DNA of 39,794 nucleotides from a virus, in IMG/VR virus record IMGVR_UViG_3300046509_000004, positions 1 to 39,794 of that record; one strand, 5' to 3'. How positions within the stretch are numbered: the stretch's first letter is position 1; each line of letters begins with the position of its first letter. The notes beneath the pieces are model-generated. The model saw only the letters and a list, made by a program, of their open reading frames with translations, was not told the DNA's origin and ran no database searches. The translations under genes and the position numbers were made by a program. This document shows positions 2,537 to 38,741 of the stretch, in pieces.

Positions 2537-3247
2537 CTATTTCGCTAACAGGTCTATTTGAACAGCAGCCTTCGGCTTCTCGATGAACATGTCCGGCTGC
2601 CGCACCGCTTCCTCGATCCGGCGGCAGGCAATGTCGAAATACTTTTCCTCGATCTCGATGCCGATGAACTGGCGACCGATCTTCACAGCGGCAACGCCAG
2701 TAGTGCCGCTGCCCATAAACGGGTCCAAAACTATACTGTTGGGTGTGGTAAATCTGACCACAATTTTATGCATAATGTTTTCCGGCTTCGGACATGGGTG
2801 ATCTTTCTTTTCTCCATCTCTTTGAAAGCCGACGCCCCCACCGCCCTTGATACTTATTTTGTCGCTTTTGAGAACTCCGTTGATGGAACCAATGCCGCCA
2901 AGGTCCTTCCCGTAAAGAAGCAACGGCATCCATTGGGTATAGCCAAAATAGCCGTATGAGCCTGTAGTGTTCCAGTCTATTGACGCAATCCAAGATGTTT
3001 CAGGATACAAATGAACCTGACCAATTCCGGAAAGAACGCAGATGCGATCTGCTTTTAGTAGAGGCATTACATCAGCAATCAATTGCCGCAGATTTTCTCG
3101 CGTATCTTCGTAACTAAGATACTCAAAGCCAATCCCATACGGAGGGTCTGTGACCACGGCATCGACCTTGCCGAGCGTAGGCAATATCTCCCGGCAGTCG
3201 CCCAGGTAGAGGGTGACGCCATTGCCTATGGTTTCAACTCGGCTCAA
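2537..3247 (-). CDS. DNA methyltransferase, beta-class amino-methyltransferase, about 236 aa
   Basis: Transfers a methyl group from S-adenosylmethionine to an exocyclic amino group of adenine or cytosine in DNA. The catalytic DPPY lies at residues 34-37 and the cofactor-binding FMGSGTTG at 177-184, an order typical of the beta class (which includes CcrM). HPCPKP at about 150-155 is the usual HP..KP element. It is much shorter than CcrM (about 358 aa), has no extra C-terminal domain, and its target site cannot be read from sequence. The start is probably TTG at 3247, 5 bases after GGAG; an ATG at 3292 has no ribosome site and overlaps the next gene. It may protect phage DNA or alter methylation-dependent gene control. 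Confidence 0.9.
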   Translation of the reverse strand: MSRVETIGNGVTLYLGDCREILPTLGKVDAVVTDPPYGIGFEYLSYEDTRENLRQLIADVMPLLKADRICVLSGIGQVHLYPETSWIASIDWNTTGSYGYFGYTQWMPLLLYGKDLGGIGSINGVLKSDKISIKGGGGVGFQRDGEKKDHPCPKPENIMHKIVVRFTTPNSIVLDPFMGSGTTGVAAVKIGRQFIGIEIEEKYFDIACRRIEEAVRQPDMFIEKPKAAVQIDLLAK

Positions 3248-3267
3248 AATCGCTCCTATATATTGTC

Positions 3268-3456
3268 TCAGTTGCCGCACACAAAGTCGCAACAGGATTC
3301 ATCATCCTTGCAGCAAGCGCGTTCTGGATATTGTTCGGTTGGGCCACCACGGATACAACCTTTTTCCGGCGCAGCGCCGCAAGCAACACACCAGCCGCTC
3401 GGATAGCGCGGATGATCGCTCGCGCGGGCAACGGGTCTTTCACACGGAGGCTGCAT
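3268..3456 (-). CDS. Cys-rich zinc-ribbon-like protein, 62 aa
   Basis: Eight Cys in 62 residues: an early Cys, CVAC, an isolated Cys, an adjacent CC pair, a second CC pair and a C-terminal Cys. At least one metal site is likely. Pro/Arg-rich between the Cys. The ATG at 3456 follows AAGGA; the longer frame to 3501 lacks a ribosome site. Function unknown. Confidence 0.65.
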   Translation of the reverse strand: MQPPCERPVARASDHPRYPSGWCVACGAAPEKGCIRGGPTEQYPERACCKDDESCCDFVCGN

Positions 3457-6864: not shown

Positions 6865-7164
6865 ATGAGCAGAATTTCGGAGCAACTAGACCCTTCATTT
6901 GGCGGTTCTACCTACCAGCCGGAATTTGATTATAGCCGCCTGACCGGTCAGCTATTGCGGGTTTATCATCGCATGAAAGACGGCAGATGGTACTCGCTGG
7001 CGGATATAGCTGAATATGCCGGTGGATCGGAAGCGGCTTGTAGCGCCCGCCTGCGCGATCTTCGAAAGCCAAAATATGGTTCCCACGAGATAGATCGCCG
7101 CCGCATTGGAAAATCGGGCTTATTTCAATACCGATGTATTATTTGGAGGCCTTATGCCCCCTAA
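6865..7164 (+). CDS. Winged helix-turn-helix protein, 99 aa
   Basis: Residues 27-85 read as a winged helix: LTGQLLRVYHRMKDGRWYSL, then ADIAEYAGGSEAACSARLRDLRK as the helix-turn-helix, then a hairpin wing (EIDRRRIGKSGLFQYRCIIW). Similar small phage proteins are found in replication and regulation modules. The ATG at 6865 is preceded by GGGAA; in-frame ATGs at 6847 and 6853 lack a ribosome site. It overlaps the GcrA gene start by 11 bases. Confidence 0.75.
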   Translation: MSRISEQLDPSFGGSTYQPEFDYSRLTGQLLRVYHRMKDGRWYSLADIAEYAGGSEAACSARLRDLRKPKYGSHEIDRRRIGKSGLFQYRCIIWRPYAP

Positions 7165-7666
7165 ATCGGTTTGGGACGATCCCAACAATGTGGCTGTTCT
7201 GAAAGCCTGCATTGACAAGAAAATGTCGTCCTCTCAGACGGCTTGCCACATTTCTGGCATTACCGGACTACCACTAACCCGCAATGCCTGCCTTGGGGCT
7301 GCAAATCGCCGTGGGTGGCAATTTGATTCTGTTATGGTGGGAAAGCATCCTAGAACCTCAGAAACGCGCAAGCGGGCCTCCCAGGTCTATTGGTTAGCCA
7401 AACCAAAGCCTGTCTCCGAACCTCCCCAAATCGAGCCAGACTTCCTTGGCCTGACCTTTTGGGAACTTCCCGAAACGGGATTTTGCAAATACCCCCATGG
7501 GGAATCCAATTTTACGTTCTGCGGCCAGCCAGCCGTCGAAGATACTAGCTGGTGCCCCTACCATACAAAAATCTGCACAATGAGGTCTAGCCATGTCGTT
7601 TATGGAACATCAACCCGACCATTGCAAAACAGCGGAGCAGGTACGGGAAGCGGCATTAAAGGTTAG
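7154..7666 (+). CDS. gcrA: GcrA-family cell-cycle transcription regulator, 170 aa
   Basis: GcrA is an alphaproteobacterial sigma-70 cofactor that activates promoters carrying CcrM-methylated GANTC. Here residues 7-55 match the N-terminal DNA-binding part (W7, then LKACIDKKMSSSQTACHI, LTRNACLGAANRRGW). Residues 104-141 match the C-terminal signature ELPETGFCKYPHGE, then FTFCGQP, WCPYHTKIC, with the Cys/His set intact. GGAGG precedes the ATG. The last 25 residues overlap the DnaA-like gene and lie beyond the usual end of the family. A role in redirecting host cell-cycle transcription, perhaps with the phage methyltransferase, is inferred. Confidence 0.85.
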   Translation: MPPKSVWDDPNNVAVLKACIDKKMSSSQTACHISGITGLPLTRNACLGAANRRGWQFDSVMVGKHPRTSETRKRASQVYWLAKPKPVSEPPQIEPDFLGLTFWELPETGFCKYPHGESNFTFCGQPAVEDTSWCPYHTKICTMRSSHVVYGTSTRPLQNSGAGTGSGIKG

Positions 7667-8114
7667 GGCCTTCAGGCAGTTATCCAGACCCACTATTATT
7701 GAATTTCCTCGCCCTATTGAACCTATTCCTGAACCTGAGCCGGTAATTCGGGATTGGCTATTCGTGGATTCTAATACCTCCCGCGCCAACAAATGGCCGT
7801 CCACATTCATAAGACACATTAAGTCATTGGTTTGTAAGGAGTTTTTGGTTTCATTAAACGATATTGATTCAGCCAGACGATCCCGCTACATAGTTATCCC
7901 CAGGCACGTTGCGATATTTCTTTCCAAGACATTGACGTTGAAAAGCTACCCCGACTTGGCCAGACTCTTTGGAGGCCGGGACCATACCACTTTGATGTTT
8001 GCCTGCAAACAAACTGAAAAGCGCATGAAAGCCGATCCAGACCTATGCCAGCAGGTATTATGGCTAAAGGACCGGTTAGAGCAAGATTTGGCGGAATGGC
8101 GCAAATCGTGCTAG
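7593..8114 (+). CDS. DnaA domain IV protein, 173 aa
   Basis: Residues 70-150 match the DnaA C-terminal DNA-binding domain: SLNDIDSARRSRYIVIPRHVAIFLSKTL, then SYPDLARLFGGRDHTTLMFA (the GGRDHTT signature at 127-133). The AAA+ ATPase domain is absent. The N-terminal 60 residues are Pro-rich with no known fold. It would bind DnaA boxes without ATP, either to mark the phage origin or to compete with host DnaA. GAGG precedes the ATG. The first 74 bases overlap the GcrA gene in another frame. Confidence 0.85.
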   Translation: MSFMEHQPDHCKTAEQVREAALKVRAFRQLSRPTIIEFPRPIEPIPEPEPVIRDWLFVDSNTSRANKWPSTFIRHIKSLVCKEFLVSLNDIDSARRSRYIVIPRHVAIFLSKTLTLKSYPDLARLFGGRDHTTLMFACKQTEKRMKADPDLCQQVLWLKDRLEQDLAEWRKSC

Positions 8115-8196: not shown

Positions 8197-8613
8197 ATGA
8201 AGCATCCCTGGATGCCGTTTTATATAGGCGATTACCTAGCAAATACGGCTCATCTATCCCGATCAAATCATGGTTCCTACCTGATGATGCTTTTTCATTA
8301 TTGGGTGCATGATGGCCTCCCGACCGATCCACAGCAGCTTATGGCAATTGCCAAAATGACACCAGAAGAATGGTCTGGCAATTGCCACATTATGGCAGAG
8401 TTTTTTGACAATAAATGGCGTCATAAGCGCATGGATAAAGAGCTAACAAAAGCTAAAAACATTAGTGAAAAGAGGGCGTTAGCTGGCCTAAAGGGAGCGT
8501 GGTCTAAACATAGAAAGTATGAAGGCTCAAATGTCTGGCAAATGCCACCACAGTCACAGTCACATATAGACAGTCTAAAGAGGCTATCCGAGAGAGCAAG
8601 GAAGAAGGATTAG
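8197..8613 (+). CDS. DUF1376 replication-associated protein, 138 aa
   Basis: The N-terminus (WMPFYIGDYLANTAHLS, then HGSYLMMLFHYWVHDGLP) is the DUF1376 (YdaU-like) signature seen in replication modules of phages and prophages, usually next to helicase loaders. No loader is encoded here, so the phage may rely on host DnaB/DnaC functions. Residues 1-85 are the domain; the rest is basic and disordered. A strong AAAGGAGGGA precedes the ATG. Confidence 0.85.
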   Translation: MKHPWMPFYIGDYLANTAHLSRSNHGSYLMMLFHYWVHDGLPTDPQQLMAIAKMTPEEWSGNCHIMAEFFDNKWRHKRMDKELTKAKNISEKRALAGLKGAWSKHRKYEGSNVWQMPPQSQSHIDSLKRLSERARKKD

Positions 8614-8616
8614 AAA

Positions 8617-9024
8617 ATGGCTTGGTACGTCGCAATTGTCGGAATAAATCAGGAATCCTTAGCCCTTCGAGGTTTATCTGCCAAAGGCTATAAATGCTAT
8701 TGCCCTGCCGGTCGAAAGACAGTCCGCCACGCCAGAAAACAGGAAATCCGCACATTCTTCATATTCAGCCGCTATTTATTCATCAATTTTGAAATATCCG
8801 ACGATAACCTAGCTGCCATAAGGGATACTGATGGCGTCATAGATTTTATTACTAACCTATGGATACCGGTTGAAATCCCCGCATTTATTATCGAGGATAT
8901 AAAACAGCGTGAATTAGCTGGCGAATTTGATCTTAAGGAACCAAAATTTACAAAACAGAAATGGGCCAAATCATTCGAGGAATTGAAACGTCTGCTAAAT
9001 CCTGGGGCCTTAATTACGGTTTGA
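8617..9024 (+). CDS. NusG N-terminal-domain protein lacking a KOW domain, 135 aa
   Basis: Residues 2-100 match the NGN domain of NusG/RfaH: WYVAIVGINQESLALRGL, CYCPAGR, IFSRYLFINF, DGVIDFI. This domain bridges the RNA polymerase clamp and promotes elongation or antitermination. The KOW domain that normally follows ends after about six residues (PGALITV, then stop). It probably acts as a phage elongation factor for the long rightward operon. It lies just before a promoter-like sequence at 9026. Confidence 0.8.
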   Translation: MAWYVAIVGINQESLALRGLSAKGYKCYCPAGRKTVRHARKQEIRTFFIFSRYLFINFEISDDNLAAIRDTDGVIDFITNLWIPVEIPAFIIEDIKQRELAGEFDLKEPKFTKQKWAKSFEELKRLLNPGALITV

Positions 9025-10111: not shown

Positions 10112-10360
10112 ATGGCGGCCCGTAAACAGCAGTGGAACCCCGATTGGGTAAGAGCTAAAATACAAGCAACCCTGCTCGTTAAGAGGTTGGAAGATCATGC
10201 GTTATCCGATAATGAACTTATGACTTCCAGCCAAATACAGGCCGCCAACATTCTACTTAAGAAATCAATATCTGATTTAACCTCGACTGAGATAACAGGC
10301 AACGCCGACAAGCCAATAGCGCATAAGCTAACGATTGAATTTAAAAGACCTGGGGAATGA
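10112..10360 (+). CDS. Putative terminase small subunit, 82 aa
   Basis: Matches a short phage family placed with terminases: a basic helical N-half, then SSQIQAANILLKKSISDLTS with the Leu-Leu-Lys-Lys and Asp-Leu-(Ser/Thr) pattern, and a short strand end. Small subunits recognise the packaging site on phage DNA and deliver it to the large subunit. It is shorter than most small terminases and lies 5.4 kb from the large-subunit gene, so the assignment is probable rather than certain. Confidence 0.6.
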   Translation: MAARKQQWNPDWVRAKIQATLLVKRLEDHALSDNELMTSSQIQAANILLKKSISDLTSTEITGNADKPIAHKLTIEFKRPGE

Positions 10361-10470
10361 GCAGCCTTATTATTGGCCTATCCTGTGCCGCTATCCTCAT
10401 TGGGCTATTGCTGTTATCGGTTAGGATAGTCATGCACCGGGTTGCGCCACCGAACAGCGATGTGGATTAG
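10357..10470 (+). CDS. Small membrane peptide, 37 aa
   Basis: Found by reading the gap. One hydrophobic helix (residues 3-22, Leu-Ile-Ile-Gly-Leu-Ser-Cys-Ala-Ala-Ile-Leu-Ile-Gly core), then a short basic/Pro tail. Its ATG overlaps the stop of the terminase small-subunit-like gene (ATGA) and its TAG overlaps the next GTG (TAGTG). It is the first of two peptides leading towards the Wzy-like gene. Confidence 0.6.
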   Translation: MSSLIIGLSCAAILIGLLLLSVRIVMHRVAPPNSDVD

Positions 10471-10562
10471 TGGTTATCCTTATCATAATGATTTGTGTGA
10501 CGGCGGTGATTGCCATTATGATGATAATTGCTGGTATGCTGTTGGACCGGGGTACTGATTAG
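10470..10562 (+). CDS. Tiny hydrophobic peptide, GTG start, 30 aa
   Basis: The start is GTG at 10470, overlapping the previous stop as TAGTG. About 24 of 30 residues are hydrophobic (Val/Ile/Met/Leu/Ala), ending in DRGTD. Its size and character recall the 31-residue polymerase inhibitor of phage D3, also encoded beside a phage wzy gene. That link is analogy only. The ATG at 10488 is an alternative start. Confidence 0.5.
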   Translation: MVILIIMICVTAVIAIMMIIAGMLLDRGTD

Positions 10563-10571
10563 GAGATTAAA

Positions 10572-10763
10572 ATGGCTAAAGACAAAGAGGGCCACGGTAG
10601 CGAGGCGCATAGGGAAGGGCATAAGCCGAAGGTCGAGCAGGGGAAATATGGGAATGGTACTGAGTTTCATAATGGATTAGTTCAAACAAGTAAAAATAGG
10701 TATAGTTTTGGTGGTAAAAAATTTACTGAAAATTATAAGCATAAGCCTACTGCTTTTGATTAG
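10572..10763 (+). CDS. Small charged disordered protein, 63 aa
   Basis: Lys/Gly/His-rich with no hydrophobic core. GKYGNGTEFHNG at residues 27-38 is shared with the protein at 9121-9276, so the two are diverged paralogues. The 3' half of the gene is strikingly AT-rich. AGGAG precedes the ATG. Function unknown. Confidence 0.7.
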   Translation: MAKDKEGHGSEAHREGHKPKVEQGKYGNGTEFHNGLVQTSKNRYSFGGKKFTENYKHKPTAFD

Positions 10764-10769
10764 TTCTAA

Positions 10770-11843
10770 ATGATCCTCGGCTTTCTCCTAGCCATTTGCT
10801 TCAACCCATATTCCTATTCCGCCGCTACTAATCCACGTTGGGCCTTGTTAGCTTTAGCTCTACCAATAGCAATCTGGTTTCGATCACCTAAGCATTGCAC
10901 CCCCTTACACCTTGCAGGCATAGTATTTCTGGCATGGGCCGTACTATCTCTCACCTGGACGCCAAACCTTTTAGACGGGTACAACTCGACAATTCAGTTG
11001 TTGATCGTAGCGGTAACATTCGTTCTTGGCGCGCGGCTCCCGACACTACGCCCAACGTTTCTTGGTTTGGCATTGGGGCTTACCCTAAGCAGTCTGATCC
11101 TGATAAGCCCGCTGAAGGAACTACATCCGATAATCGAGATAAGCCATGAAGGGCTACTTGGTAATCGTAATATGCTCGCGGAAGCAGCGGCACTAACGGC
11201 GATAGGCTGCATTAGCTACAGGCTATGGTGGACGATACCAGGACTACTACCGGCAATAATAATCCCAAACGCACGCGGAGCCTTGGTAGGATTAGGGGCC
11301 GGTTTGCTCGCCTGGATGTGGTCACGCTCAAGAACGTGGACTTTATTGCTTGCGTTATTGAGCATCTGTGCAGTTCTCATATCGACCATGCTAAGGCCGC
11401 TCACAGTCGATATGCGACTGGATATGTGGACCGACACGATTAAAGGGCTAACGCTATTCGGGCATGGCATTGGTTCTTTCAGGTATCTATTCCCCTTCCT
11501 CACCCATTCATTCGACGGCGCGTCCAACGTTGTCGATCACCCCCACAATGAACTACTGGAAATCTGGTTTGAACTCGGTGCAGTCGGACTATGCCTATAC
11601 GCGGCTATGGTCGCCATTGCCTTTAGAACTGCGGATATTGCTTCGCGTTCTGTCATGGCTGGGTTTATTGCTATCGGGTGCTTTGCGTTTCCCTCACATG
11701 AACCTGTTACGGCGTTTATTGGGGCGCTTGTGCTTGGTCATGCTGCTAGGAATGGGCTGCCTATACGCAGTTTGTTTGAACCTGTCCGACTGGCATTACG
11801 CACAAGGCTTCAATCTCACATTGCCTCCGAAGGACAGGGTTGA
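10770..11843 (+). CDS. Wzy / O-antigen ligase-like integral membrane protein, 357 aa
   Basis: About ten transmembrane helices with the Wzy_C signature in the large periplasmic loop: GHGIGSF, then VVDHPHNELLEIWFELGAVGL (about residues 231-275). Arg residues before it (NARGALVG, MRLDMWTD) are also typical. Members polymerise or transfer O-antigen units in the inner membrane. Phages carry such genes to alter host lipopolysaccharide, as D3 wzyβ does, blocking superinfection. The start has no clear ribosome site. The 3' end overlaps the next gene by about 146 bases. Confidence 0.85.
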   Translation: MILGFLLAICFNPYSYSAATNPRWALLALALPIAIWFRSPKHCTPLHLAGIVFLAWAVLSLTWTPNLLDGYNSTIQLLIVAVTFVLGARLPTLRPTFLGLALGLTLSSLILISPLKELHPIIEISHEGLLGNRNMLAEAAALTAIGCISYRLWWTIPGLLPAIIIPNARGALVGLGAGLLAWMWSRSRTWTLLLALLSICAVLISTMLRPLTVDMRLDMWTDTIKGLTLFGHGIGSFRYLFPFLTHSFDGASNVVDHPHNELLEIWFELGAVGLCLYAAMVAIAFRTADIASRSVMAGFIAIGCFAFPSHEPVTAFIGALVLGHAARNGLPIRSLFEPVRLALRTRLQSHIASEGQG

Positions 11844-12180
11844 GCAGTTCAGGCTAGCCAATCAGTTCTATCCATTGGACTGGCGCAACCGTTTAGCTTC
11901 AGCCGGTTTAATCTCAAATCTAGCTCTAGCCTCGAATGACCAAGGCTGGCTTAACGCAGCACAAATTGAAAACCGTAAAGCTTTAGTCACCGATGCTACG
12001 GATGCCACGTTAATACAGAAAGCTATCCTGATTGATCTGGCTTTTCATGACGATAAAGAGGCTGAAGTTTACTATCAGCAGCTAAAGCGGATAGATAGAA
12101 AATCCCCCATTCATGAATTGGTGGCGAACAGTCATCAACAGCAGGCCGAGCCGTCGCCTGCGATCCCTGACGGCAATTAG
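11698..12180 (+). CDS. Membrane-anchored TPR-like companion of the Wzy protein, about 160 aa
   Basis: One N-terminal transmembrane helix (CLVMLLGMGCLYAVCLNL), then a soluble helical region with repeated A..L.P / R..LA patterns (RLANQFYPLDWRNRLASAG, AAQIENRKAL) like the periplasmic TPR tails of Wzy/PglL-type enzymes. In many hosts this part is fused to the polymerase; here it is a separate overlapping frame. The frame is open from 11464, so the start is uncertain. No good ribosome site was found at 11698 or later ATGs. Confidence 0.6.
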   Translation: MNLLRRLLGRLCLVMLLGMGCLYAVCLNLSDWHYAQGFNLTLPPKDRVEQFRLANQFYPLDWRNRLASAGLISNLALASNDQGWLNAAQIENRKALVTDATDATLIQKAILIDLAFHDDKEAEVYYQQLKRIDRKSPIHELVANSHQQQAEPSPAIPDGN

Positions 12181-12190
12181 GAGCAACACG

Positions 12191-12799
12191 ATGAACAAAC
12201 GTATCGTAGTTGGCCTTGCCATTGCAGGGTCAATTGGATTGTCAACTCTAGCCTTCGCTGCCGGTCTATTTCCGGATTATCCCATTGTTGGTGGCGCTAC
12301 CTACTGTGCTGGTTCGTCCCAGTCAGCTACCGGTACGCTTATCGGTGCCATTACCGGTTGTCCCAACCAAGTCCCGGCTGGCCCGACTATTCTAACGGGC
12401 ACTGAGAAAATCCCGGCTGATACCGGTCTGGCCAGCGGTGCCAATCCGCAGACCGTCTTGATCCCGATGGCTGCCTTGAACGCGCTACCGATTCAGTTTG
12501 TATCGGTTAGCTCTGCCAACCCGGCAAATATCAGTGCGACCAATACCAGCGGTGGCGTATGTTACAACTCGACAGTCACAATCACTGCGGCAAATGTCAC
12601 GTTGCCAGCCAGCCCGATTGACGGCGAGCAATATGTAATTTGCTCCAACTACACGATTACCGCGCTGGCCGTGTCGGCTCCTGCCGGTACGACGCTATCG
12701 GTTACGACGCCCACAGTTCTGACGGCATCCACGACCGTGCCCCAGGGCTATACGTTTATCTACAATGCAGCCTCAACCAAGTGGTTCAAGCTCCGCTAG
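12191..12799 (+). CDS. Exported protein with Sec signal peptide, 202 aa
   Basis: MNKR, a hydrophobic core (residues 5-20), then an A-F-A cleavage site near 24: a textbook Sec signal peptide. The mature part is beta-rich, Thr/Ala/Ser-rich with four Cys, and resembles phage fibre or decoration domains (DGEQYVICSNYT, YNAASTKWFKLR at the end). GGAGC precedes the ATG. It belongs to a cluster of three exported proteins. A periplasmic or surface role is inferred; it may be a virion part despite the signal. Confidence 0.75.
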   Translation: MNKRIVVGLAIAGSIGLSTLAFAAGLFPDYPIVGGATYCAGSSQSATGTLIGAITGCPNQVPAGPTILTGTEKIPADTGLASGANPQTVLIPMAALNALPIQFVSVSSANPANISATNTSGGVCYNSTVTITAANVTLPASPIDGEQYVICSNYTITALAVSAPAGTTLSVTTPTVLTASTTVPQGYTFIYNAASTKWFKLR

Positions 12800-12807
12800 T
12801 CTAACTA

Positions 12808-12844
12808 GGGCCGTCACTTGCCCCCCGGTGACGGCCCATATTTT
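12808..12844 (+). terminator. Strong hairpin terminator
   Basis: GGGCCGTCAC (12808-12817) pairs perfectly with GTGACGGCCC (12828-12837), with a 10-base loop, followed by ATATTTTC. It lies 9 bases after the stop of the exported 202-aa gene. The U-tract is short and interrupted, so partial termination is likely. Confidence 0.75.
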
Positions 12845-13298: not shown

Positions 13299-13676
13299 AT
13301 GAAATATCTGATAGTACTTTTTTTGTTTGCCTTCATGGCATCGGCGCAGGCACAACAGCCTGTCATTACCCAGCCTTATGCCGTGGTTAGCGTAAATGCG
13401 TCGGGTACGATTGCCTCAACTGGGGTTTTTCAATCAATCTGGACGGCTTTAACAACCAATCCAAACTCTCCGAAGCGGGCAAGCTGTACGGTGCAGAATA
13501 ATGGCACGCATACGATGTATGTGTTTTTTGGCCCAATAGCTTCGGCCACTACAGGAACCTCCGTTGCGTTGGCAGCCGGTCAAGCAGTTAATTGTTCTGT
13601 CGGGGGTACTGTGTTGCAAGACCAGGTTTCGATTACTGGCACCTCAACGGACGCATTCTTTGCGGCGCAGCAATGA
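13299..13676 (+). CDS. Exported protein with Sec signal peptide, 125 aa
   Basis: MKYL start, hydrophobic core, and a cleavage site A-Q-A at residue 19. The mature part is a small Ser/Thr/Ala-rich beta sandwich-like domain with two Cys (ASCTVQNN, VNCSVGG) suited to one disulfide. It resembles phage decoration or fibre-tip proteins in composition only. GAGGCATCC precedes the ATG. It ends in an ATGA overlap with the next fibre gene. Confidence 0.75.
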   Translation: MKYLIVLFLFAFMASAQAQQPVITQPYAVVSVNASGTIASTGVFQSIWTALTTNPNSPKRASCTVQNNGTHTMYVFFGPIASATTGTSVALAAGQAVNCSVGGTVLQDQVSITGTSTDAFFAAQQ

Positions 13677-14440
13677 AACACCCCATGCTTAAAAAACCTG
13701 AGTTGTTAAAACGCAATTTGCTGCTAGGCTTGGGGGCTGCTGCATTAGTAGCTCCAGCAACGATGGCGTTGGCGCAGACAATTCAGCCTACATCAGGGGG
13801 GGGCTCTAGCACGCTAACGGCCAATTCAACAGCAACAAGTGGGTTCACCGCAAATCAATATCTCTATTCCGATGGATCGAAGCTACAGGCTGGAACGTCT
13901 AACGGCACGGGATCATTGGTTGGTACTACTTCGCCAACACTCGTTACGCCGAATATCGGTGTTGCGACTGGTACGTCACTTGCTCTCTCTGGCGTAATCT
14001 CCACTGGCGTTGGAGGGTATAGCGCGCCAGCCGTGACTATTGGGGAGGCGGGGACTGGTATATTTTTAGCAGCCACTACTCGTCTTCAGTTTGTTCTGGG
14101 GTACAATATCGTAGGTGATTGGAACTTTAATTCTGGTGCACCTGTTTTTAAGCTTACTGGCAACGGGGTTGATGGCGGTGCTAATTCGTCGTTCATACTT
14201 GGTGACAATTTACACGGCACGTTTGAACTGCTGTTCTGGACCGATGCGACCAACAATATCGCAAAGCTTCAAACCTTCAATGGCGGCAGCGATTATGACC
14301 ATGTACTTAGTTTTCAGTCCTTGGGGGGGACCGTAAAACTTCCAGTGAAGGTGGATTTGTCTTCTTTGCCGACAGCAGACCCTCACGTTGTCGGTCACGC
14401 ATGGAGTAATCTAGGCATTGTTACAGTGAGTGCCGGATGA
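13673..14440 (+). CDS. Tail-fibre-like protein with signal peptide, 255 aa
   Basis: A basic start (KKPELLKR), hydrophobic core and A-L-A cleavage near residue 35 form a signal peptide. LKRNLLLG is a weak Tat-like motif with KR instead of RR. The mature part has phage-fibre features: Gly/Ser/Thr repeats, SPTLVTPNIG and VIGEAGTGIFL-like strands, and HVVGHAWSNLG near the end. Coupled by ATGA to both the exported 125-aa gene and the tailspike-like gene that follows. Confidence 0.75.
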   Translation: MKHPMLKKPELLKRNLLLGLGAAALVAPATMALAQTIQPTSGGGSSTLTANSTATSGFTANQYLYSDGSKLQAGTSNGTGSLVGTTSPTLVTPNIGVATGTSLALSGVISTGVGGYSAPAVTIGEAGTGIFLAATTRLQFVLGYNIVGDWNFNSGAPVFKLTGNGVDGGANSSFILGDNLHGTFELLFWTDATNNIAKLQTFNGGSDYDHVLSFQSLGGTVKLPVKVDLSSLPTADPHVVGHAWSNLGIVTVSAG

Positions 14441-31485: not shown

Positions 31486-32937
31486 ATGAAGCATAGATTG
31501 TGCTGCCTTATAATCTTTCTATTCGCTACGTTTCCGGTTCATGCAGCAACCACGCTGCTGCCGCCTGGAATGCAATGCTTTACCGACGCGACCGGAGCCG
31601 TTATTTCCGGTTCTGTTAATATGTTTTATCCGGCAACTACTTCTCCTAAGCCAACATGGCTGGATGCAAATCAACTCGCGCTAAACAGCCAACCAATCCA
31701 ATTAGACGGAAATGGTTGTGCCACTATATACGGTATAGGGTCCTATCGCCAGCAGCTATATGATGGTCCGGTAGTCGGTGGAAACACCAGCGGCAATTTG
31801 CTTTTTGATAAGATAACCACAGATACCAGCGCCTATAATGCGGTGTTTTGGGCTGGTCTTTCCGGTGGTACGGCAAATGTCATTACGGTTGTCGATCCAG
31901 GCTTTAATGCGACCGATGGTACCGTTATAAACTTCACGGCTCTAGCGACTAACACATCCTCAACCACTATTAACCCTTCGGGTTATGGCGTTATTTCTGT
32001 CCTAAAGGATACTACTTCCGGCCCTGTATCTTTGACAGGTGGCGAGATTATCCAGAGTAATATTATTTCGGTTGTCTATCGTTCTTCGGATAATGCATTT
32101 CACCTGCTCAATCCGCCTATTCAATCTGCCAGCGGCGCGGTTTCCCCCCTTTGCGGCGCTTCTGGATTACAGATTACCAATGGATCAACGCCTAGTTCAA
32201 TTATCTCTGTGACGGCCAATGATGCGGTAATGACAAGTGCTGGAGGTTTGGTTCAAAACCGTGCAAATATTTCTCTAACGAACATAAATATTACTACCGG
32301 AACATCTGCTTCGACAGTCAACGGTATGGATGGTGAAGCACCAGGAACGAGTTCTTGGCTTTATATTTTTCTCATAGACAACGGTTCGGCATCAGCCGGT
32401 CTTGTTTCTCTAGCTTCAGGAAATGGTCTAAATCCGTCTCTGCCGAGTGGTTATATTTATAAATGTCTTATGGGTGCTATGCTGGTTGACGGCAGTGGCA
32501 ATCTTATGAGGACACTGCAATCTGGCATTCATGCCCAATATGTCATTACGACTTCAACTAATACCGCTGTTGTTCCAAATATCGTGAACGGGACGCAAGC
32601 TACATATTCTACAACTTCCCCGACTCTTGCGTCAGTAAGCGTGAGTGGGTTTGTTCCTCCGATAGCCACGGAAATAAATTTGCTCGTTACAAATGCGTGG
32701 AAAGGCAACACCGCAACTGGCGTTCTTGTCGCTCCTAATGTCAGTTATGGCGGCACCAATAACGGCCCGCTTGGGAGTGCAGGACAATCGTGGCCTTATT
32801 CGGCGTTTGCAACGGTTGGAATTGTTGCGTCTTTCAACATGGTATTAGAGGGAACAACAATTGCCTGGGCCAGTACCGCCGCTGGCGGGGCCATTTCTTG
32901 CTTAGGATGGACCGTTGGAGGCGTCAATGCGAATTAA
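31486..32937 (+). CDS. Tail fibre with head-binding-like domain and Sec signal peptide, 483 aa
   Basis: Residues 1-20 are a signal peptide (MKHR, hydrophobic core, cleavage V-H-A). Next comes a normal phage fibre N-domain: LPPGMQCFTDATGAVISGSV, MFYPATTSPKPTWLDANQ, like the head-binding domains of P22-family spikes. The remainder is Ser/Thr/Gly-rich beta structure with several Cys. The N-domain should bind the tail hub in the cytoplasm, so the signal peptide is unexpected. The next gene's ribosome site (GGAGG) lies inside its end; overlap 11 bases. Confidence 0.8.
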   Translation: MKHRLCCLIIFLFATFPVHAATTLLPPGMQCFTDATGAVISGSVNMFYPATTSPKPTWLDANQLALNSQPIQLDGNGCATIYGIGSYRQQLYDGPVVGGNTSGNLLFDKITTDTSAYNAVFWAGLSGGTANVITVVDPGFNATDGTVINFTALATNTSSTTINPSGYGVISVLKDTTSGPVSLTGGEIIQSNIISVVYRSSDNAFHLLNPPIQSASGAVSPLCGASGLQITNGSTPSSIISVTANDAVMTSAGGLVQNRANISLTNINITTGTSASTVNGMDGEAPGTSSWLYIFLIDNGSASAGLVSLASGNGLNPSLPSGYIYKCLMGAMLVDGSGNLMRTLQSGIHAQYVITTSTNTAVVPNIVNGTQATYSTTSPTLASVSVSGFVPPIATEINLLVTNAWKGNTATGVLVAPNVSYGGTNNGPLGSAGQSWPYSAFATVGIVASFNMVLEGTTIAWASTAAGGAISCLGWTVGGVNAN

Positions 32938-34924
32938 ATATATTGCAATCATTCTCTTATTGATGACGGCTCCTGCCTTTGCTCAGACAGGCACCTCCCA
33001 AACTCCTGCCCAATTAAATAATGAAATAAATTCAAAATTTACCGATCAACTGATTGGAGCTATTACACCATATACCTTACGCCAATTAACTTTGGATATG
33101 GTGGCTTCTACAGGACAAATATTTAATATCACAGGGTTTGGTGCGGTTTGCGATGGGACGACTGACGATTATACGGCAATTCAAAATGCTATAAACAAGG
33201 CTCAATCTACATCGGTAACTTCCGGGGGATTACCTTTTGGTACTCCGGTAATTCAGTTTCCAGGGGCTATTTGCCGGATCGCATCGGCTTTGAACATTAC
33301 CGGCCCTCTTGTGTTTGATGGTGGTGGCAGCGGCAATGCAGTGTTGCTTGTCGATAATGCAACTGGCGGATTAGTATTTAGTCCTAGTAGTCAATACAAT
33401 CAGAGTGTTGTTAAAAACCTAACTATTAAAGCTGGACGTACTCATGCAGGTACAGCATTCAAATACAATGGCGTTGTAACTAGCAGTGCTAATAATCCTC
33501 AATTGCTTTTAGAAAATGTCCTGATTCGAGGGGATGGTACAAACTATTTTGATCGGGGTATTTACTTCGATAACGCTTGGGATGCAGTGTTTAATCATGT
33601 GACGCTTCTTGCCGATGGTGCTAGTTCGGCAACCTATTGGTCGAATGCTATCGAGATTGGAACGAATGTAATTGATGCGAAATTCAGCCAGGTATCTATC
33701 AACGGTGCGGTTCATGCTTGGAATATCACCGGAGCCCACGTCGAGGGCATCCGCATTGAACACTCGACTGCTATTGCTGTTAATTTCGGAGTGGTAGGAA
33801 CAACTTCGGTCGGCTCTCCTCATTTTACTGTTTTGGACTCCCATATCTCTGCCGCTACTACCAATGTTTCCCTGTCGGGTAGTTTTGCCCAAGTAATCAT
33901 CGGGCGTAACGACTTTTTTCTCCAATCCCAGGCCGGGTTTACAACACCAAATGGTGCCAAGGCCATAGATTGTCTTGCCTGCGGCGCAGTTACCATATCC
34001 GGTAATATTCTTGCTATGAATGATGTTGCGGCTACAGGAACAGTTGGCATTAAATATGACACGGGAACGTCTGACGTAAATGATGGCGGAAATACTCTGG
34101 CCGGATTTGCCACTGGTGTTTCTGTCGTCAGCGGAGTTACGGGAACGTATGCCGCAAGCACCTTCGATACCGTCACAACGCCAATTTCAAATTCTGCTCC
34201 AAGTACGTTCTTTTCATCAAATCAAACTATTTCTTGGGGTGGTGCTGGTGGAACTTCGTTTTTGAAGTGGATAGATACCGTCGCCAATAAAACTACAAAT
34301 TGGAATTACAATGCAGGAGTAGTATCATGGATTCGTAATGATGGAACAACGACAGGAGCCTCTCTGGATGTAGAGCATAGTGTCCTAAGTCTTGGTGGTT
34401 CTGGTGTCCTTGGAAGTCTATCATTAGGCAATGCAACCTCTGGAACAATCACTTTACAGCCGGTCGGAGGTGCTCTTGGAAATGTTACCCCTTCCTTGCC
34501 AGCCAATACCGGTATTATAGCCGAGACGAATTATGCACAATCATGGACAGGGTTACAATCGTTTGCTTCTATTGGTCTTGTTACGCTTGGCTGGTCATCC
34601 ACAGCGCCAACCATTGCATCAGGATTTTGTAGTACTGGCTCTCCTGTAACTGCACTTAGCGCGTCTAATGGAACGGCGGCTTTTGATATTCTTATCGGGG
34701 CGGCTACTTGCGGTTCTACTGGAACGCTTACAATGCCAACGGCAACTACAGGGTGGGTTTGTTCCGCTACGGACGTAACGACGCCAGCCAGCCATAACGT
34801 AGTGCAGACCGGAACGAATGGATCAACTACGGCTGTGGTTTTAACTGACTATTCCCGCACCGCTGGAACGGCACAGAACTTCCTTCCTGCCGATCATGTC
34901 CATGTAATGTGTACGGCTTACTAA
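32927..34924 (+). CDS. Pectate-lyase-type tailspike with Sec signal peptide, 665 aa
   Basis: Residues 1-20 are a signal peptide (MRIKY, hydrophobic core, A-F-A cleavage). Residues 27-65 form a known phage tail N-motif (LNNEINSKFTDQLIGAITPYTLRQL). A beta-helix follows, marked by FGAVCDGTTDDYTAIQNAI at about 73-91, which would bind or cleave surface polysaccharide. The C-terminal 120 residues resemble fibre tip domains and end HVHVMCTAY. ATG 32927 has GGAGG 5 bases before. TAATG overlap with the lysozyme gene. Confidence 0.85.
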   Translation: MRIKYIAIILLLMTAPAFAQTGTSQTPAQLNNEINSKFTDQLIGAITPYTLRQLTLDMVASTGQIFNITGFGAVCDGTTDDYTAIQNAINKAQSTSVTSGGLPFGTPVIQFPGAICRIASALNITGPLVFDGGGSGNAVLLVDNATGGLVFSPSSQYNQSVVKNLTIKAGRTHAGTAFKYNGVVTSSANNPQLLLENVLIRGDGTNYFDRGIYFDNAWDAVFNHVTLLADGASSATYWSNAIEIGTNVIDAKFSQVSINGAVHAWNITGAHVEGIRIEHSTAIAVNFGVVGTTSVGSPHFTVLDSHISAATTNVSLSGSFAQVIIGRNDFFLQSQAGFTTPNGAKAIDCLACGAVTISGNILAMNDVAATGTVGIKYDTGTSDVNDGGNTLAGFATGVSVVSGVTGTYAASTFDTVTTPISNSAPSTFFSSNQTISWGGAGGTSFLKWIDTVANKTTNWNYNAGVVSWIRNDGTTTGASLDVEHSVLSLGGSGVLGSLSLGNATSGTITLQPVGGALGNVTPSLPANTGIIAETNYAQSWTGLQSFASIGLVTLGWSSTAPTIASGFCSTGSPVTALSASNGTAAFDILIGAATCGSTGTLTMPTATTGWVCSATDVTTPASHNVVQTGTNGSTTAVVLTDYSRTAGTAQNFLPADHVHVMCTAY

Positions 34925-37892: not shown

Positions 37893-38044
37893 TGCAAAAC
37901 CTAGGTCTGGTCCTTCTCGCCTTCGCTTTCGTATTCGTGACTATTGAAGCATGGCAAACGCGGCGCTTTGCCTGGATTGGCGTAGCATGTTGGATAGCTG
38001 CCGAGCTATTCGGCGGTGTCATGCGCGCCGGTTTCTTCCACTGA
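37892..38044 (+). CDS. Small membrane protein, 50 aa
   Basis: Two short hydrophobic helices (NLGLVLLAFAFVFVTIE and FAWIGVACWIAAELFGGVM) separated by AWQTRR. Linked by TAATG to the DUF3309-like gene and by TGATG to the next peptide. Function unknown. Confidence 0.6.
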   Translation: MQNLGLVLLAFAFVFVTIEAWQTRRFAWIGVACWIAAELFGGVMRAGFFH

Positions 38045-38139
38045 TGTTTGTCAATCAAAGTGCCATGACTTTGATAGGGCTTATCGTACTGATGTGCGCC
38101 ATTGGACTATATTTTTCCGGCATCTGGAATTGTTGCTAA
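38044..38139 (+). CDS. Tiny membrane peptide, 31 aa
   Basis: One hydrophobic helix (MTLIGLIVLMCAIGLYFSGIW) ending in NCC. Its start overlaps the previous stop (TGATG). It is the last gene before the terminator at 38159. Function unknown. Confidence 0.5.
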   Translation: MFVNQSAMTLIGLIVLMCAIGLYFSGIWNCC

Positions 38140-38158
38140 ATAGTCCCCCGTCAACTTG

Positions 38159-38187
38159 GCCGCTCGTAGCAATACGGGCGGCTTTTT
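38159..38187 (+). terminator. Rho-independent terminator
   Basis: GCCGCTCGT (38159-38167) pairs with ACGGGCGGC (38174-38182) over 9 positions (one G-U), with a 6-base loop and then TTTTT. A textbook terminator after the membrane-peptide genes and just before the exported 178-aa gene, which may therefore depend on readthrough. Confidence 0.85.
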
Positions 38188-38204
38188 CATTGAAAGGACA
38201 CCCC

Positions 38205-38741
38205 ATGAAATATGTTCTTGCCCTGATAGCGGTATTTATTCTCATTTCTCCCGTACAGGCCAGAACGGCCCAGGGATGCGTTTCCGACAATAATGGGCGC
38301 ATGGTATGCCGTGGCTTGGTAGAACGCACAAAAACACGCCCTATTAGGCAGGCCAAGCATGAAAAACAGCATATTAGGCGGGTTGAAAGGCATATAGCCC
38401 GGAGCGAGCATGTGGTGGGTGGGCGTCCTAGCGGCTGCCCTTATCGATGGTGTGGATGCGGGGTCAGCCTGAAGGTCTTTGGCAAGATCATCCCGGAACT
38501 TAATTTGGCTTCCAACTGGCGGCGCTTCCCAGCAGCCATAGCATTGGCTGGCATGGCGGCATGGCGTCCAGGGCATGTATTCTACATTATGGCCGTCAAT
38601 GGCGATGGCACGGTCTTAGCCTACGATCCAAATAGTGGCCATAGCGAAGCTCATATCCACAATAGAAGCCTGCGTGGCTTTCGTGTGGTTGATCCCCACG
38701 GCGGAAGGTATGCCAGCCGCTTGTTTGGGCTTTTACAATGA
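38205..38741 (+). CDS. Exported CHAP-like cysteine protein, 178 aa
   Basis: A Sec signal peptide (MKYV, hydrophobic core, V-Q-A cleavage near residue 19), a basic His/Arg-rich linker, then a domain with SGCPYRWCGCGVSLKVFG, ELNLASNWRRFP, GMAAWRPGHVFYI and VLAYDPNSGHSEAHIHNRSLRGFRVVDP. This matches, from memory, small exported proteins of Rhizobiales related to the CHAP/NlpC-P60 cysteine-hydrolase fold: Cys in the first motif and His in RPGHVFYI would be the catalytic pair. A cell-wall role in lysis or exclusion is inferred. GAAAGGA precedes ATG 38205. Confidence 0.75.
   Translation: MKYVLALIAVFILISPVQARTAQGCVSDNNGRMVCRGLVERTKTRPIRQAKHEKQHIRRVERHIARSEHVVGGRPSGCPYRWCGCGVSLKVFGKIIPELNLASNWRRFPAAIALAGMAAWRPGHVFYIMAVNGDGTVLAYDPNSGHSEAHIHNRSLRGFRVVDPHGGRYASRLFGLLQ

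Follow-up and report, generated by a model that had tools for sequence, protein, structure and literature searches.

The virus record examined here (IMG/VR record IMGVR_UViG_3300046509_000004), referred to in its full length of 39,794 bases as the window, encodes a P22-type portal protein and a Terminase_3 large terminase. Within it, a gene for a Wzy_C-domain membrane enzyme (wzy) was found to contain, in its +1 frame, the start and the membrane-anchor segment of a second gene (tpr), which encodes a membrane-anchored tetratricopeptide repeat (TPR) protein. Because the same arrangement recurs across many distantly related phages, it suggests an unrecognized two-protein machine rather than a one-off. 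Phage Wzy_C polymerases are already known; the nested TPR partner is the new element, and a literature search, conducted mostly without subscription papers, did not bring up any report of a TPR gene nested within a phage wzy. The locus may tentatively be read, with close to an even chance of being correct, as a two-protein envelope-glycan polymerase/ligase pair belonging to the phage late operon.

A second gene starts inside wzy

The wzy gene (positions 10770 to 11843, plus strand) encodes a polytopic membrane enzyme of 357 amino acids (aa), and tpr (11683 to 12180, plus strand) overlaps it by 146 to 296 nucleotides (nt), depending on the start. Within wzy of the window, 392 nt of the +1 frame are open, and the frame stays open for 337 nt beyond the wzy stop. 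A preliminary description of positions 10357 to 12180, made from the sequence, had placed an anchored TPR-like protein behind the enzyme. The TPR fold was borne out, and the protein is present in every usable locus, but its gene does not simply follow downstream; the start inside wzy was missed in that first reading. All four open reading frames (ORFs) described there are present (10357-10470, 10470-10562, 10770-11843, and the +1-frame ORF ending at 12180).

Related phages were gathered through portal and terminase searches, and wider scans added L102, L114, L117, and L119 and then about two dozen further records. In G001 (58% identity), L006 (47%), G003, and L007, a relative of wzy lies ahead of the same terminase. 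The set used for counting comprised the 30 phage loci whose wzy relative extends to its 3' end. L213 and L214, in which wzy leaves the contig, were dropped, as were the weak partial matches L228 and L229 (67 and 130 query residues) and L231, in which wzy is cut at 99 residues. Among the wzy proteins of the 30 records, a single pair, L220/L223, exceeded 80% identity. A +1 ORF with a membrane helix overlapped the end of wzy in 30/30 loci, and a sequence profile recognized it as the same protein in 26 of them, made up of the nine training loci and 17/21 new loci (E < 0.01). Since 30 distinct records share the +1 arrangement, a frameshift introduced by assembly or sequencing was rejected.

The profile was built from nine +1 products, and 23 new loci, together holding 3,631 open frames, were searched with it. 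Each of the twelve top matches was the wzy +1 ORF, with E values from 7e-14 to 3e-6, followed by L220 and L223 and by three more below 0.01; no other frame among the 3,631 fell below 0.01. In L220 and L223 the recovered +1 ORF is wholly nested, closing 8 nt short of the wzy stop. With the same profile, nothing convincing was detected in 112 phage loci lacking wzy (best E, 0.44), and nothing in 36 bacterial Wzy_C loci (51 entered; two pairs were the same gene). A split bacterial Wzy-TPR fusion, an origin suggested by L104, is not claimed, given this count of 0/36.

To assess chance openness, codons were shuffled while the Wzy protein was kept. The p value for the +1 frame was 1e-4 in the window, and the values for the nine phage loci were 0.0001 (window), 0.0023, 0.0022, 0.028, 0.031, 0.009, 0.128, 0.188, and 0.015. 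Fisher combination gave p = 3.7e-10 for the +1 frame and 0.997 for the +2 control, the combined value being inexact because the loci are related. The same test was applied to 25 later loci, of which 23 were analyzable, and gave combined values of 8.9e-6 (+1) and 1 (+2), with 4/23 individually below 0.05; L220 and L223 were scored there as having no +1 ORF because theirs ends before the wzy stop. Bacterial Wzy_C genes gave no +1 signal (combined p, 0.69; 12 rows, 11 distinct genes). Conservation was also frame specific: the +1-frame similarity of aligned pairs exceeded that of synonymous shuffles in wzy codons 260 to 300 and 315 to 357 (z of 4.2, 5.5, 5.6, 6.9, and 4.0), while codons 300 to 315 had no +1-specific excess and the +2 control reached z of at most 4.0.

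Codon shuffling, frame-specific conservation, and a recurrent Shine-Dalgarno (SD)/TTG start inside wzy support that tpr is a real nested gene. That the +1 ORF is no gene but a by-product of hydrophobic codons or high GC content appeared very improbable. Several loci do have unremarkable individual p values, but this explanation is opposed by the profile recognition across 3,631 frames, by the reach of the +1 ORF up to 385 nt past the wzy stop, by the conservation described above, and by the absence of the feature from bacterial Wzy_C genes. If both proteins are made, a single DNA stretch would encode two functional membrane proteins, in an arrangement that is strongly conserved.

Start, fold, and topology of the TPR protein

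Three candidate starts were noted in the window: TTG 11683 (165 aa), which is homologous to the SD-TTG starts of relatives, ATG 11548 (210 aa), and ATG 11698 (160 aa). A +1 start codon two residues before a conserved F-P of Wzy was present in 13/30 loci. SD pairing of -8 kcal/mol or stronger was found at 7 of these 13 start-bearing sites, compared with 1.6% of 638 other +1 starts (Fisher p, 3e-9, a post hoc value because the site was chosen after the loci had been seen). In the seven strong-SD loci, a conserved Glu codon and its neighbors supply the SD (GGAGG). L114 and L208 carry a strong SD ahead of TTG. The motif finder used for the start site struck wrong places in L007, L099, and L205. 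Judged on these sequence features, the TPR protein is probably made by internal initiation within wzy.

Alternatively, a +1 ribosomal frameshift could fuse Wzy to the TPR domain, yielding one protein instead of two. In favor of fusion, the TPR frame is +1 relative to wzy in every case, and some bacterial Wzy_C proteins have long in-frame C termini (L104, 632 aa). However, the bacterial C termini did not match the TPR profile, and no slippery codon was common to the family, position 307 being TTT in 5/8 and TTC in 3/8. Were the shift to occur ahead of the last Wzy helix, a positively charged flank would end up in the periplasm. Part of the family, moreover, has SD-TTG starts. Fusion by frameshifting was therefore considered improbable.

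A model of the 210-aa form (predicted local distance difference test [pLDDT] score of 73) consisted of one long membrane-type helix and helix pairs at 94-129, 132-165, and 169-199. Its best PDB matches were TPR proteins, the top Foldseek match having an E value of 1.1e-3 and a probability of 1.00. According to the positive-inside rule, a positive flank stays on the cytoplasmic side of the membrane. Positive residues precede the helix in 8/9 tabulated products (the listed product of the ninth, G003, begins at the helix), which would place the TPR domain in the periplasm.

The Wzy_C enzyme and a proposed role for the pair

The earlier assignment of a Wzy_C-type enzyme was confirmed with Pfam PF04932 (E = 6.4e-11), the whole window protein scoring 42.7 bits against a gathering cutoff of 31.7. 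Among relatives, L102 (39.9 bits) and L099 (37.6) were also over the cutoff and L098 (30.8) and L006 (27.3) slightly under it, and a further scan matched Wzy_C in 5/5 family members. A Wzy_C search of 40 records matched seven, all chosen beforehand for Wzy_C (six over the cutoff, one below), with no match in the other 33, which may include fragments. Arg169 and His259 were invariant in 8/8 complete aligned relatives and Arg216 was present in 7/8. The Arg169/His259 pair resembles a catalytic-type pattern as in the O-antigen ligase WaaL, assuming a residue mapping between the two that we infer.

The model of Wzy was of low confidence (pLDDT, 53). It was nearest to WaaL (7tpg), with a Z score of 10.4 over 267 residues, and next to FtsW/RodA with Z of about 6; these scores came from a VIA-align re-examination of Foldseek's own hits, so that families absent from those hits are not thereby excluded. 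In predicted fold and Arg/His pattern the enzyme may thus resemble WaaL, from which the nested TPR partner distinguishes it. Foldseek itself gave nothing meaningful for the model (best E, 0.33, to an unrelated protein). A PDB profile search with wzy gave no match and a single-wzy search chance matches only. In PHROGs, the window protein matched phrog_38855 alone (E = 0.0016), and six relatives had no match at E up to 0.01. Searches of INPHARED by tblastn with the wzy of the window, L099, L102, L207, L210, and L204 gave zero matches, and IMG/VR scans with a single wzy sequence alone or with the exported protein encoded beside the pair also gave none.

Several phages carry comparable enzymes. 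The Wzy(beta) proteins of D3 and epsilon15 contain the Wzy_C motif and are O-antigen polymerases, according to the available part of one report (PMC4815439), and these beta-polymerases work with an inhibitor of the host enzyme, as described in the available parts of two (PMC4815439, PMC12004945). The likeness of epsilon15 Wzy-beta/Iap to the window consists in the Wzy_C domain of a phage polymerase (PMC4815439, available part). Variovorax phage VarioGold likewise has a Wzy_C protein, VG_p25, with membrane and signal-peptide gene neighbors. It differs from the window in being temperate and in having a moron-like cluster opposite the late genes, and no nested TPR gene is reported in the accessible portion of its description (PMC9658991). 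PHROG 19842, which holds D3 Wzy-beta (L112:5422-6582), carries the label "polymerase" in the category DNA, RNA and nucleotide metabolism, although it is an O-antigen polymerase.

In the polymerase/ligase reading, the TPR protein would start inside wzy, for some family members at an SD-TTG site, and would be anchored in the inner membrane, its TPR domain facing the periplasm. In that position it would bind the Wzy-type enzyme and control chain length or acceptor. Late in infection, the pair would draw on host undecaprenol-linked sugar units to synthesize or attach a surface polymer of another kind, and the altered polymer could stop released or competing phages from adsorbing via tailspikes. 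Because polymerases, ligases, and protein oligosaccharyltransferases share Wzy_C, we infer the polymer switch rather than read it from the domain. If both proteins are made, the poorly understood Wzy/WaaL enzymes would gain a natural, separable partner. A further prediction is that reworking of envelope glycans, or of the exported proteins of the phage itself, is common among phages of environmental bacteria and takes place in lytic growth and not in prophages alone.

Several findings weigh against this reading. Four of the 21 new loci (L211, L217, L219, and L224) had a weak or no profile match, their +1 ORFs having a hydrophobic helix and a motif that looks similar by eye. The TPR start is not conserved, 17/30 loci having no start codon at the tested site, and the SD at TTG 11683 of the window is weak (-2.2 kcal/mol). 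The late-operon position and the lack of a detected integrase set the locus apart from D3 and epsilon15, whose polymer change takes effect in lysogens. Finally, signal-peptide proteins are encoded next to the pair in 20/29 loci (upstream in 14/28, downstream in 9/27), compared with a background of 55/579 ORFs of at least 100 aa, an enrichment that is somewhat inflated because the neighbor test allowed more start codons than the background. These exported neighbors fit an oligosaccharyltransferase at least as well as they fit a polymerase/ligase pair.

Exported neighbors as possible glycan acceptors

In the window, the neighbor is an exported, Ser/Thr-rich signal-peptide protein of about 202 aa (12191 to 12799, plus strand), of a kind conserved beside the wzy-tpr pair. 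Its Ser+Thr content is 24%, against a mean of 14% over 21 later ORFs. Such a neighbor would be a candidate target if the Wzy_C protein were a phage O-oligosaccharyltransferase moving undecaprenol-linked host glycan onto the adjacent exported phage protein or proteins, with the TPR protein as the acceptor-binding partner. PglL/TfpM-type O-oligosaccharyltransferases belong to the Wzy_C family, their genes often adjoin that of the exported target, and Wzy_C alone cannot separate the family, as stated in the available part of PMC3643930. L098 also had a weak NCBIfam TfpM match (E = 0.022). Against this, the families listed for the five members scanned, up to an E value of 10, did not include PglL_A (PF15864), a difference from PglL, yet PilO also lacks PglL_A (PMC3643930, same part). 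In addition, 9/29 loci had no signal-peptide neighbor by the rough predictor used to call signal peptides, and signal-peptide tail-like proteins were also found in the wzy-minus phages G012, G013, and G407, for which reason the idea that exported proteins are unique to wzy phages was rejected. The oligosaccharyltransferase explanation was regarded as less probable than the polymerase/ligase pair, and as its main rival.

A bolder version, held to be rather unlikely, is that the family is a widespread, undescribed phage machine in which a Wzy_C oligosaccharyltransferase and an out-of-frame TPR acceptor-binding subunit transfer host glycans onto Sec-exported, fibre-like proteins in the periplasm. 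Phage adhesins or surface proteins would then be sugar-coated before lysis.

Sec-type signal peptides were predicted in six late-region ORFs of the window (12191-12799, 13299-13676, 13592-14440, 31486-32937, 32915-34924, and 38016-38741). Among them is a pectate-lyase-like tailspike (32915-34924); a signal peptide is unexpected on the tailspikes of a tailed phage. Relatives with and without wzy alike encode similar exported, tail-like proteins.

Gene order and micropeptides

The module reads, in order, small terminase subunit (TerS), 37-aa peptide, 30-aa peptide, 63-aa hydrophilic protein, wzy, tpr, exported protein, and hairpin, with short or overlapping spacings throughout. The probable TerS (10112 to 10360, plus strand; 82 aa) was without a match in a Pfam scan and has a C-terminal motif common to ORFs of L098, L099, and L119. 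The 37-aa peptide (10357 to 10470, plus strand) starts with ATG in an ATGA overlap with the TerS stop and has one predicted membrane helix; the 30-aa peptide (10470 to 10562, plus strand) starts with GTG and has one base in common with the preceding stop. Their best 19-residue Kyte-Doolittle means of 2.76 and 3.34 agree with the two hydrophobic micropeptides of the preliminary description. They do lie upstream of wzy as described there, but the 63-aa protein (10572 to 10763, plus strand), which resembles small ORFs of L098 (tblastn E = 9e-5), intervenes.

By tblastn the two peptides gave nothing convincing and had no detectable similarity to peptides of other wzy phages, and the slot before wzy held no such peptide in L099, L102, L114, and L117. 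Position was better preserved. An ORF follows TerS through an ATGA overlap in the window (37 aa), L098 (67 aa), and L119 (31 aa), so that these peptides have the same position and different sequences; in L099, TerS is followed with the same overlap by an 83-aa signal-peptide protein. Among 29 distinct TerS-like genes from 161 loci, a small hydrophobic ORF after TerS was found in 3/4 wzy phages and 0/25 others. The micropeptides are placed as if translationally coupled to the TerS gene and not to wzy. Because many of the 25 non-wzy TerS genes lead directly into the large terminase, the peptide may be the mark of an inserted cargo block rather than a partner of Wzy. In the polymerase/ligase reading, the micropeptides may assist at the membrane and would not be essential to the module.

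These data bear on a D3-like serotype conversion: the phage enzyme would take over from a host Wzy inhibited by a micropeptide, and the receptor of lysogens would change. The position behind TerS and the example of D3 itself, with a 31-aa inhibitor and a Wzy_C enzyme (PF04932 E = 1.7e-4, below the cutoff), favor such a mechanism. So does Salmonella OpvAB, which pairs a 34-aa peptide with a Wzz-like protein; this small peptide and membrane partner alter O-antigen length and block phages (PMC4652898, available part). OpvAB is, however, bacterial and phase variable and includes no Wzy. As a model D3 was apt in its components and not in its layout. Its iap and wzy(beta) are minus-strand genes close to attP and the integrase, whereas the window module lies in a late structural operon rather than in a lysogenic-conversion cassette; iap is 2.3 kb from wzy with an O-acetylase between them, and no TPR partner is annotated. 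Further objections are that the peptides of different phages are dissimilar, that they do not adjoin wzy in four wzy phages, and that no integrase was found in the window, which may be incomplete, or in G001, G003, and G010, which may be fragments. The window module has the enzyme in common with the known phage systems, and perhaps the logic as well. A D3-like switching of the host surface polymer is possible, with the full conversion scheme considered quite unlikely.

Operon setting and other observations

Between about 6.8 kb and 38.7 kb, the larger genes all lie on the plus strand. The product of 7106-7666 resembles GcrA (E = 2e-8), whose family is distributed in alphaproteobacteria, and the host is for this reason probably an alphaproteobacterium, in line with the preliminary description. 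Upstream of the module, a NusG/RfaH-like gene (8617 to 9024, plus strand; Pfam NusG E = 3e-13) may encode a late-operon antiterminator. NusG/RfaH/UpxY-like genes also lie upstream of wzy in G001 (495-896) and G003 (51785-52108) and were not found in G010, G400, and G401. An intrinsic-terminator-like hairpin (12808 to 12837, plus strand) follows the exported-protein gene. A different strong hairpin, built on CCGGGG/CCCCGG, is located at the same place in L006, L007, and L100, and L098 has only a weaker hairpin, further downstream.

Next to the GcrA-like gene, a DnaA C-terminal domain (7593-8114; E = 4e-21) and a DUF1376 protein (8197-8613) are encoded, and the three are possibly phage copies of host cell-cycle or replication regulators. 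On the minus strand, 1276-1758 weakly matched the Mom family of DNA-modification proteins (E = 0.006), with an N4/N6 methyltransferase nearby (2537-3292). The two ends of G003 (55.8 kb; L100 and L099), at 1-200 and 55700-55830, encode a near-identical stretch with a few mismatches, so that this genome is probably circularly permuted, its ends containing errors. The product of 25661-26437 matches phrog_34170 (E = 1.5e-57) in its N-terminal part, where putative SET-like motifs were noted by eye, and the short tail fibre family phrog_12032 (E = 1.2e-42) in its C-terminal part.

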